From contig OZ024874.1 in the NCBI GenBank assembly GCA_964017185.1, positions 35,688,721 through 35,752,720 of the forward strand: a stretch of DNA of 64,000 nucleotides. The letters are read 5' to 3'. Source of the stretch: Rugalucina vietnamica. Its lineage: Eukaryota > Mollusca > Bivalvia > Lucinida > Lucinidae. The notes under the pieces were generated by a model. The model ran no database searches. It saw only the letters and a program-made list of their open reading frames with translations, and had not been told where the DNA came from. Both the position numbers and the translations under genes were made by a program. Of the stretch, positions 23,283-33,093 are shown piece after piece (position 1 is the first letter of the stretch; every line of letters begins with the position of its first letter).

Positions 23283-24798
23283 TATAAGCGGGTGTGCGAA
23301 GATGGGCAACTTGCCCATCTTGGTTATGATCTGATTTTTTTTTTATTTCTGCATTTGTTCTTTTTTGTTCTCCTTTATATTATTAATGATAAAACATGTC
23401 CCATTTGGGGTCTATTCAGAGAGGGTTAGGGTTAGGATTAGGGTATAAGCTGATGTACGAAGATGGGCAACCAGCCCATCTTGGTTATGATCTGATTCTT
23501 TTCTTTCTACATTTTTTTTTTATTTCTTTTTCCCCCCTTTTTTGTTCGCCTTTATATTATCAGTGATAAACCTTGTCTCAGTTTGGGTCCATTCAGAGAT
23601 GCTAATCTTTAATATTAAATAACATGAATTCGTATGTAACGTAGGGTTAGGGTTAAGGTTAGGCGCTTGAAACACACCTTGTTTGATTGTGCGCACTTTC
23701 AATCTTCTGGCAACATGTAGCCCTTATGACGTCAATCTCGCTTGTCATTCAAAATTTGAGCAAGCATTGTATTTGAGCATACTTTGCGCGGCTGACAGTG
23801 AGTGGCCGTCCACGATTTTTCAGTATAGATGTGCCTACGCTTAAGACAATGCTTAACTGGTGTGTGCTTCCAAGAGAAGTAAGTAAAATATAAAGGTTGG
23901 ACACTTTGGAAGTAGTTAAATCATTCAAAGGGAGATAGTATGGACCATATTGCACAATTTCGGGTAATGAGCCCTCATCAGTAGCCCTAGAAGTGAACAT
24001 TTGTAAGTTGTGTGTATTTGATCGTACAATGGATATAATATTGGCGGTAGATGTTGATTTTCGACTTAATGCAGGCTGACCCAGGTTGGTATACGAGCGT
24101 TGTCTTTGGTTACATGAAAACAGAACGTAAAGACTAAATTGACCTCTAAGAATATTGCTTTTAGAGCGGTATTCCATTCGCAGTACCTGTTTTCCAGGAG
24201 CAAGTTAAAGAACAAAGGTTCTCATGCCTAGCAATTCATTGGACTATATTGGACTTGCAATATCCATGGACTATAGGGGCCGCAGAACTCAGAAAAAATC
24301 AATACAATCCAATGGACTATATGGGCCTTGTGCAACATCCATGGACTCTACGGGCCGTAGCATTTTTTGGGTTAGGGTTAGGGTCAGGGTGTAAGCTGAT
24401 GTGCGAAGATAAACAACTTGCCCATCTCGGCTATGACCTGATTTTTTTCTTTCTTCATGTTTTCCTTTTGTGTTCTCCTTTATATTATTAATGATAAAAC
24501 TTGTCTCAGTTGGGGTCTATTCAGAGATGCTAATCTTTGATATTAGATAACACGAATTCATATGTAACGTTAGTTCGGACAAGCTTTATATGCTTTTTCA
24601 TATAGATTTCGCGTGTTCCTTTATTTCTGACGAACAACACAATGTGTTCATATATATATATCACTAAGCATAATGCCGTATGTAACTTCAGTTCGTAGAC
24701 TGTTTTCATTGCTCTTAAGGGAACTCAATCTATAGTTCCATTTAGTTCGCACAAACAATATACTGTTTTCAGATATATTAATTAACATAATTTCGTAC

Positions 24799-27394
24799 CC
24801 CTATCAGCGTTTTGGTCAAATAACGTACGGTTTTGGGATTTTATTCAGGGTTTTTAAAAGAGTTTAGCCAAATTGTTGTGAATCAATAATAAAATGCGTC
24901 AACCCCGACCATTTTGTGGGAGAGATTTGATTTTGATATAATTTGAACCCCTATCAGGGCTTTGGTCAAATCAAGTAGGGTTTTGGAATTTTATTCAGGG
25001 TTTGAAAAGAGTTTAGCCCAATTGTTGTGAATCAATCATAAAATGCGTCAACCCCGACCAATTTGGGGAGAAATTTGATTTTCAATCGGATTTACTTGAA
25101 ACCCCTATCAGGGCTTTGGTCAAATAACGTAGGGTTTTGGGATTTTATTTAGGGTTTGTAAAGAGTTTAGCCCAATTGTTGTGAATCAATAATAAAATGC
25201 GTCAACCCCGACCATTTTGGGGGAGAGATTTAGTTTTCGATATAATCTAAACCCCTATCAGGGCTTTGGTCAAATCAAGTAGGGTTTTGGGATTTTATTT
25301 GGGGTTTGAAAGGAGTTTAGCTCAATTGTTGTGAATCAATAATAAAATGCGTCAACCCCGACCATTTTGTGGGAGAGATTTGATCTTCGATATAATTTGA
25401 CCCCCTCCCTATCAGGGCTTTGGTCAAATCACGTAGAATTTGGGGATTTTATTCAGGGTTTGAAAAGAGTTTAGCCCAATGGTTGTGAATCAATCATAAA
25501 ATGCGTCAACCCCGACCATTTTGGGGAGAAATTAAAATTTTCAATCTAACTTACTTGAAACCCCTATCAGGGCTTCGGTCAAATAACGTAGGGTTTTGGG
25601 ATTTTAATTAGGGTTTGTAAAGAGTTTAGCCCAATTGTTGTGAATCAATAATAAAATGCGTCAACCCCGACCATTTTGGGGGAGATATTTAGTTTTCGAT
25701 ATAATCTAAACCCCTATCAGGGCTTTGGTCAAATCACGTAGGGTTTGGGGATTTGAAAAGAGTTTAGCTCAATTGTTGTGAATCAATAATAAAATGCGTC
25801 AACCCCGACCATTTTGTGGGAGAGATTTGATCTTGGATATAATTTGAACCCCTCCCTATCAGGGCTTTGGTCAAATCACGTAGGGTTTTGGAATTTTATT
25901 CAGGGTTTGAAAAGAGTTTAGCCCAATGGTTGTGAATCAATCATAAAATGCGTCAACCCCGACCATTTTGGGGAGAAATTAAATTTCCAGTCTAATTTAC
26001 TGGAAACCCCTATCAGGGCTTCGGTCAAATAACGTAGGGTTTTGGGATTTTATTTAGGGTTTATAAAGAGTTTAGCCCAATTGTTGTGAATCAATAATAA
26101 AATGCGTCAACCCCGACCATTTTGGGGGAGATATTTAGTTTTCGATATAATCTAAACCCCTATCAGGGCTTTGGTCAAATCACGTAGGGTTTGGGGATTT
26201 TATTTAGGGTTTGAAAAGAGTTTAGCTCAATTGTTGTGAATCAATAATAAAATGCGTCAACCCCGACCATTTTGTGGGAGAGATTTGATCTTGGATATAA
26301 TTTGAACCCCTCCCTATCAGGGCTTTGGTCAAATCACGTAGGGTTTGTGGATTTTATTCAGGGTTTGAAAAGAGTTTAGCCCAATGGTTGTGAATCAATC
26401 ATAAAATGCGTCAACCCCGACCATTTTGGGGAGAAATTAAATTTTCAATCTAATTTACTGGAAACCCCTATCAGGGCTTCGGTCAAATAACGTAGGGTTT
26501 TGGTATTTTATTTAGGGTTTGTAAAGAGTTTAGCCCAATTGTTGTGAATCAATAATAAAATGCGTCAACCCCGACCATTTTGGGGGAGATATTTAGTTTT
26601 CGATATAATCTAAACCCCTACCAGGGCTTTGGTCAAATCACGTAGGGTTTTGGGATTTTATTAAAGGTTTGAAAAGAGTTTAGCTCAACTGTTGTGAATC
26701 AATAATAAAATGAGTCAACCCCGACCATTTTGTGGGAGAGATTTGATCTTCGATATAATTTGAAATCCTCCCTATCAGGGCATTGGTCAAATCACGTAGG
26801 ATTTTGGGATTTTATTCAGGGTTTGAAAAGAGTTTAGCCCAATTGTTGTGAATCAATCATAAAATGCGTCAACCCCGACCATTTTGGGGAGAAATTAAAT
26901 TTTCAATCTAATTTTCTTGAAACCCCTATCAGGGCTTCGGTCAAATAACGTAGGGTTTTGGGATTTTATTTAGGGTTTGAAAAGAGTTTAGCCCAATTGT
27001 TGTGAATCAATAATAAAATGCGTCAACCCCGACCATTTTGGGGGAGATATTTAGTTTTCGATATGATCTAAACCCCTATCAGGGCTTTGGTCAAATCACG
27101 TAAGGTTTTGGGATTTTATTTAGGGTTTGAAAAGAGTTAAGCTCAATTGTTGTGAATCAATAATAAAATGCGTCAACCCCGACCATTTTGTGGGAGAGAT
27201 TTGATCTTCGATATAATTTGAACCCCTCCCTATCAGGGCTTTGGTCAAATCACGTAGGGTTTTGGGATTTTATTCAGGGTTTGAAAAGAGTTTAGCCCAA
27301 TTGTTGTGAATCAATCATAAAATGCGTCAAACCCGACCATTTTGGGGAGAAATTAAAATTTTCAATCTGATTTACTTGAAACCCCTATCAGGGC
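24799..27394 (+). repeat. Satellite block of L6, 2596 bp
   Basis: Gamma-type satellite matching L3 by eye. Confidence 0.9.
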
Positions 27395-31577: not shown

Positions 31578-33093
31578 GTACGAAATTATGTTAATTAATA
31601 TATCTGAAAACAGTATATTGTTTGTGCGAACTAAATGGAACTATAGATTGAGTTCCCTTAAGAGCAATGAAAACAGTCTACGAACTGAAGTTACATACGG
31701 CATTATGCTTAGTGATATATATATATGAACACATTGTGTTGTTCGTCAGAAATAAAGGAACACGCGAAATCTATATGAAAAAGCATATAAAGCTTGTCCG
31801 AACTAACGTTACATATGAATTCGTGTTATCTAATATCAAAGATTAGCATCTCTGAATAGACCCCAACTGAGACAAGTTTTATCATTAATAATATAAAGGA
31901 GAACACAAAAGGAAAACATGAAGAAAGAAAAAAATCAGGTCATAGCCGAGATGGGCAAGTTGTTTATCTTCGCACATCAGCTTACACCCTGACCCTAACC
32001 CTAACCCAAAAAATGCTACGGCCCGTAGAGTCCATGGATGTTGCACAAGGCCCATATAGTCCATTGGATTGTATTGATTTTTTCTGAGTTCTGCGGCCCC
32101 TATAGTCCATGGATATTGCAAGTCCAATATAGTCCAATGAATTGCTAGGCATGAGAACCTTTGTTCTTTAACTTGCTCCTGGAAAACAGGTACTGCGAAT
32201 GGAATACCGCTCTAAAAGCAATATTCTTAGAGGTCAATTTAGTCTTTACGTTCTGTTTTCATGTAACCAAAGACAACGCTCGTATACCAACCTGGGTCAG
32301 CCTGCATTAAGTCGAAAATCAACATCTACCGCCAATATTATATCCATTGTACGATCAAATACACACAACTTACAAATGTTCACTTCTAGGGCTACTGATG
32401 AGGGCTCATTACCCGAAATTGTGCAATATGGTCCATACTATCTCCCTTTGAATGATTTAACTACTTCCAAAGTGTCCAACCTTTATATTTTACTTACTTC
32501 TCTTGGAAGCACACACCAGTTAAGCATTGTCTTAAGCGTAGGCACATCTATACTGAAAAATCGTGGATGGCCACTCACTGTCAGCCGCGCAAAGTATGCT
32601 CAAATACAATGCTTGCTCAAATTTTGAATGACAAGCGAGATTGACGTCATAAGGGCTACATGTTGCCAGAAGATTGAAAGTGCGCACAATCAAACAAGGT
32701 GTGTTTCAAGCGCCTAACCTTAACCCTAACCCTACGTTACATACGAATTCATGTTATTTAATATTAAAGATTAGCATCTCTGAATGGACCCAAACTGAGA
32801 CAAGGTTTATCACTGATAATATAAAGGCGAACAAAAAAGGGGGGAAAAAGAAATAAAAAAAAAATGTAGAAAGAAAAGAATCAGATCATAACCAAGATGG
32901 GCTGGTTGCCCATCTTCGTACATCAGCTTATACCCTAATCCTAACCCTAACCCTCTCTGAATAGACCCCAAATGGGACATGTTTTATCATTAATAATATA
33001 AAGGAGAACAAAAAAGAACAAATGCAGAAATAAAAAAAAAATCAGATCATAACCAAGATGGGCAAGTTGCCCATCTTCGCACACCCGCTTATA

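Follow-up and report, generated by a model that had tools for sequence, protein, structure and literature searches.

Reversed telomeric-repeat polarity at a scaffold gap of Rugalucina vietnamica: a probable scaffolding artefact inside a long head-to-tail array

Do two telomere-like arrays truly face each other in the middle of a chromosome of the bivalve Rugalucina vietnamica? The question is raised by a stretch of 64,000 nucleotides (the window; positions 35,688,721-35,752,720 of OZ024874.1 in assembly GCA_964017185.1), which is located near the middle of this scaffold, here called C6 (35.7 of 72.05 Mb). The sole run of N in the window is 200 bases long and occupies positions 27497-27696 (gap 1; C6:35,716,217-35,716,416). 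As a first-pass annotation had noticed, TTAGGG is read on the left of this gap and CCCTAA on the right, with the switch exactly at the gap: words of three TTAGGG copies were found 42 times forward and never reversed on the left, against 99 times reversed and never forward on the right. As possible causes that annotation had offered the joining of two subtelomeres by scaffolding, the placing of one contig in reverse, a genuinely inverted array and an old end-to-end fusion. Judged from the sequence, and with a probability of roughly 0.93, the reversal would be a scaffolding artefact in which one contig (contig B) lies misplaced and backwards inside a cut in another (contig A). The chromosome itself thus very probably lacks this polarity reversal. 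What is genuine is a long mid-scaffold array of 4.3-kb units, arranged head to tail with interstitial TTAGGG tracts.

Continuity of the sequences outside two gaps

The array consists of units in which a satellite (S), a degenerate TTAGGG tract (T) and a segment U follow each other in that order. Left of gap 1, at window positions 3271-27496 (plus strand), it comprises a U tail of 118 bp, the full units L1-L5, the S of unit L6 and 96 bases of the T of L6, in the midst of which the sequence breaks off (27401-27496, plus strand). This end is designated A1. On the right of the gap, contig B begins 37 bases inside an S, and its reversed units (27697-64000, minus strand) extend past the window.

A further 200 kb to the right of the window was also read. 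Contig B covers C6:35,716,417-35,917,529 (201,113 bp) and is mostly repetitive. The reversed array inside it continues up to approximately C6:35,915,950, and its right end is formed by about 1.6 kb of non-array DNA. This is followed by another 200 N (gap 2; C6:35,917,530-35,917,729), contig B thus having a fixed-size gap on each side. After gap 2 the array is forward again and consists of the remainder of a T, followed by a U, an S and another T. It ends near C6:35,922,096, beyond which the DNA is non-array, save for two U-like pieces of 58 and 105 bp about 6 kb further on. Array sequence was absent from all five samples taken at 35.96-36.20 Mb.

The T that is truncated at gap 1 resumes base for base after gap 2, at C6:35,917,730 (the start of the outer sequence designated A2). 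When the 2,000 bases that precede gap 1 are joined to the 2,000 that follow gap 2, the result is an exact copy of the 4,000 bases at window positions 12651-16650. Both outer sequences are forward and they meet in the middle of a T. As a control, a weaker, 80-base version of this test was applied, in which a junction passes if its sequence occurs in the array. It was passed by 111 of 200,000 random junctions of the same polarity and by none of 200,000 of opposite polarity. The A1/A2 junction passes it. The four joins of contig B to contig A fail, two of them involving the non-array end of contig B, which could not pass. The exact continuity over 4,000 bases is most simply read as a contig A that was cut at a single base and into which contig B was inserted. 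On this sequence evidence the outer halves most likely represent one contig, cut inside a telomeric tract. The earlier idea of one contig placed in reverse therefore survives as far as contig B is reversed; it is incomplete, since the exact abutment of A1 and A2 implies that contig B would also be misplaced in a cut of contig A. The span originally singled out (window 24679-31697) does contain the flip and covers just the units adjacent to the gap: the arrays reach C6:35,011,316 on one side and approximately C6:35,915,950 on the other.

Scaffold C6 (72,046,656 bp) belongs to an assembly of 1,089,854,562 bp in 47 sequences. Among C1-C40, the sequences C1-C17 are each at least 35 Mb long and C18-C40 are each at most 123 kb. 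Of these 23 small contigs, 10 have lengths divisible by 1,000, which fits the cutting of contigs on a grid. YaHS, a widely used Hi-C scaffolder, cuts contigs on such a grid. Presumably the scaffolder broke contig A at a place where, owing to the repeats, uniquely mapped Hi-C pairs were too scarce, and contig B was then slotted into the break in the opposite orientation. This placement would have gone wrong because units that are nearly identical yield contacts that hardly reveal where a piece lies or which way it faces. According to its published description, YaHS can optionally break contigs that lack Hi-C coverage, and it selects among four orientations on the basis of a score (PMC9848053).

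Affinity of contig B with the C6 array

Contig B carries 47 U segments. Eight of these were compared with units from elsewhere and showed 99.7-99.9% identity to three forward C6 units, against 97.3-97.5% in the same test to a C12 unit close to the end of that scaffold. Over 230 bases of a U from the start of C2, the units of contig B are 97.8-98.3% identical to C2, whereas over the same bases a forward C6 unit and a unit of the window are both 100% identical to contig B. The proportion of 31-mers that also occur in contig B was 93-99% for four forward C6 samples, 58% for the C12 end and 50% for the C2 start. This closer identity and greater sharing of 31-mers indicates that contig B belongs with the C6 array, and on the better match to C6 units the idea that it is a slice of the sampled C12-end or C2-start arrays was rejected. 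It may stem from a part of the array that was not assembled or from the other haplotype. A simple flip of contig B in place was rejected as well, because it would bring the non-array end of the contig up against A1. Contig B also shows a larger higher-order pattern, in which unit lengths of approximately 4,754, 4,146 and 3,846 come back as a set several times.

Several points speak against the insertion of a misplaced contig B as set out above. A variant of T that ends in GGGG is present at 11 units of contig B and nowhere else on C6, and it was found eight times at the C2 start and once near the C12 end. Conversely, the T variant that characterizes the left side of the window is present in none of the 47 units of contig B. 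The distribution of the GGGG-ending variant implies that contig B is more than a slice that went missing from the forward units next to it. Repeats could also have been collapsed in contig A itself, in which case Hi-C evidence would have broken it rightly, and YaHS is named as the scaffolder by guesswork, on account of the 200-N gaps and the grid of lengths. The discontinuity between contig B and contig A says little in either direction: two of the four failing joins could not pass, and sequence may be hidden in a real gap.

Two independently homogenized arrays had first been suggested by the window alone, in which the left-type T is seen in 6 of 6 tracts on the left and 0 of 9 on the right, and three columns of S share no letter between the sides. 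This reading was dropped on the sequence outside the window. The left-type T occurs seven times on C6, always in the units that immediately precede the cut, and in two other places in the genome. The two-array reading fell because this T is a local variant of those last seven units.

The forward array, its relatives and the rival explanations

The five full units on the left of gap 1 measure 4,272-4,290 bp and differ from each other by 0-3 substitutions. The eight full units on the right measure 3,846-4,754 bp and show, besides length differences, 6-54 substitutions relative to the left units, the highest values being partly due to gap placement. S is composed of monomers of about 154 bp, mostly in the order A-B-C, and is 2,604 bp long in all six left copies; the copy at window positions 20513-23116 (plus strand), for example, contains about 17 monomers. 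T measures 155-174 bp within the window. The T that follows the S just mentioned (23117-23283, plus strand; 167 bp) has a longest pure run of 30 bases, and among all 15 T tracts of the window, each of them degenerate, the longest pure TTAGGG run is 36 bases. Apart from variants specific to one side and the number of hexamers, these 15 tracts have one degenerate-hexamer pattern in common, and because of this they appear to be interstitial and copied with the unit rather than terminal telomere. U is 1,512-1,513 bp long and contains three related modules, each preceded by a TTAGGG tract; in the U at 23284-24796 (plus strand; 1,513 bp) the modules are about 140-220 bp long, the first one following T. 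On the left side (window 3389-27400) a three-unit higher-order repeat is seen, in which the S copies of L1 and L4, of L2 and L5, and of L3 and L6 are identical. In one S-T-U unit scanned for open reading frames (ORFs) of at least 80 amino acids, the longest had 142; no domain search of the unit was made. The window gave no match to Rfam and no gene in a tRNA scan, and exact scans of viral_contigs and genome_contigs with a 29-mer of S gave no match in either. No published satellite like S is named in the titles or abstract openings of the literature surveyed.

The forward array starts at C6:35,011,316 with a truncated S that adjoins a non-long-terminal-repeat (non-LTR) retrotransposon. A word of 22 bases spanning S and T occurs 185 times forward and 53 times reversed in the genome. 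Among the matches listed, the first in scaffold order, all 100 are forward and located at C6:35,013,508-35,456,142, and nine of the other 85 forward words were counted directly in the C6 sequence that was read. Of the reversed words, 47 of the 53 lie in contig B. Between 35.46 and 35.68 Mb the array is known from samples, and all 15 taken at 35.47-35.68 Mb are forward. The units counted mid-scaffold amount to at least 156 (100 among the matches listed, 9 forward and 47 in contig B). When contig B is set aside, C6:35,011,316-35,716,216 and about 4.4 kb past gap 2 constitute an array of a single polarity of about 0.7 Mb, in which the units lie head to tail with telomeric tracts of one polarity between them. 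With contig B counted, the size is about 0.9 Mb.

The retrotransposon at the left edge was identified by a minus-strand ORF of 1,158 amino acids (3834-7310 of C6:35,004,000-35,013,600) in which Pfam domains of an endonuclease and a reverse transcriptase were recognized, and which begins at most 10 bases from the edge of the array. Another insertion occupies the left part of the window. Positions 1-3270 are the right part of an element of 3,797 bp (C6:35,688,194-35,691,990), which has terminal inverted repeats of about 870 bp that are 87% identical, and is flanked by a 3-base TAT duplication. It sits within a U, and the forward array is in register on its left too. Positions 1-3270 are therefore not a chromosome-side flank, and position 3271 was dropped as a chromosome-side boundary.

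Relatives of the unit are found elsewhere in the genome. A 25-mer of U occurs 388 times forward and 235 times reversed; of the 100 matches listed, 91 are in C1 (60.24-60.58 Mb), 7 at the C2 start and 2 near the C3 end. At C1:60,243,529-60,362,624, the 90 places listed for this 25-mer all have the forward orientation and are for the most part spaced by about 1.32 kb, which represents another interstitial array. The presence of a large array inside C1 implies that the family is not confined to ends. The 34 ends of C1-C17 were sampled with 600 bp each. Seven read as N, leaving 27; the first 600 bases are all N at the starts of C1, C2, C4, C5, C8, C13 and C14. Six of the 27 readable ends match the family, over 479-600 bp at the C10 start, the C17 start and the C16 end, and over 46-81 bp only at the C2, C14 and C15 ends. 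With the C1 start, C2 start, C3 end and C12 end added, the number of ends that have relatives no further than about 105 kb away comes to 10. The G-rich strand points outward at 8 of these 10 and inward at the C10 start and the C16 end, which are possibly further misoriented array contigs. The subtelomeric character supposed earlier is thus in part supported by these ends, some of them by short matches, whereas the C6 array itself (35.0-35.9 of 72.05 Mb) is not at a chromosome end and the array inside C1 is large.

With these data the other explanations of the reversal can be weighed. A true inversion of at least 200 kb within the array, contig A then being a collapsed or alternative haplotype, is very unlikely. 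Arrays can invert, and contig B is long, of the same array family and was put here by the scaffolder; however, the halves of contig A meet base for base across the gaps, and all other C6 units of known strand are forward (the 100 listed, the 15 samples and those next to gaps 1 and 2). The head-to-head scaffolding of two chromosome ends, for which the relatives near 10 scaffold ends and the documented occurrence of such misjoins can be adduced, appears highly improbable. It would require opposed arrays outside both gaps, whereas beyond gap 2 the forward polarity returns before the array gives way to non-array DNA. On the left, the supposed flank is an inserted element past which the forward array continues. 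Moreover, the units of contig B are closer to the C6 array than to the C12-end or C2-start samples, and the degenerate T tracts do not resemble a terminal telomere of pure repeats. Of the first-pass preference for a scaffolding cause, suggested by the 200-N placeholder, the scaffolding origin is retained and the joined subtelomeres, at a site 35.7 Mb into a scaffold of 72.05 Mb, are not.

The opposed polarity at gap 1 and the position near the middle of a 72-Mb scaffold would agree with an old end-to-end fusion, or with a palindromic duplication that has the gap at its centre. Such an origin is scarcely credible, as the array parts outside both gaps share their polarity and are continuous, and the units left and right of gap 1 are not mirror images, differing in substitutions (0-3 vs 6-54) and in length. 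A mirror-image duplication was rejected on the same grounds, the unit variants having no mirror order about gap 1. Neither the inverted array nor the fusion put forward initially is therefore maintained.

Known arrays, scaffolding errors and the meaning of the locus

False joins of this general kind have been described. Telomere ends were reportedly joined wrongly by scaffolding in one fungus (PMC9848053), and in a skink assembly with gaps of 200 Ns the joins of three scaffolds were deemed false, telomeric repeats lying internally close to them (PMC12134992). The present case is like these in its telomeric repeats at the joins and its 200-N gaps. It is unlike them in that an array contig would have been inserted into a cut contig, instead of two chromosome ends having been joined.

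The array itself has counterparts in other organisms. In the Caenorhabditis elegans strains CB4856 and DL226, the TALT1 array consists of tandem units parted by short telomeric repeats, and its copy number shifts through unit duplication (PMC9066243). The C6 array shares the tandem units with telomeric repeats between them; TALT1, however, is located at chromosome ends, whereas the C6 array is mid-scaffold and has at least 156 satellite-bearing units of 4.3 kb. The tandem Y' elements of yeast likewise have interstitial telomeric tracts, which are present at 145 of 234 tandem junctions and mostly measure 20 to about 500 bp (PMC13177704). Y' elements differ in being subtelomeric and coding for a putative helicase (PMC13177704), while the C6 unit that was scanned has no ORF above 142 amino acids and its array is mid-scaffold. 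The real array was probably enlarged and homogenized by unequal exchange or by recombination copying. That it marks a fusion point, or is a relocated subtelomere that turned into a pericentromeric or centromeric satellite, is unlikely, although its place at the midpoint of a 72-Mb scaffold and the relatives near several scaffold ends would allow for either. If it did mark a fusion point, its single polarity would mean that the subtelomere of just one partner survived.

A repeat array can thus mimic the signal of facing telomeres or of a fusion scar. A simple check for such artefacts is to leave out the piece between two gaps and see whether its outer neighbours join up base for base. For any inference on fusion, inversion or polarity that is drawn from scaffold C6 of R. 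vietnamica, contig B should be set aside.

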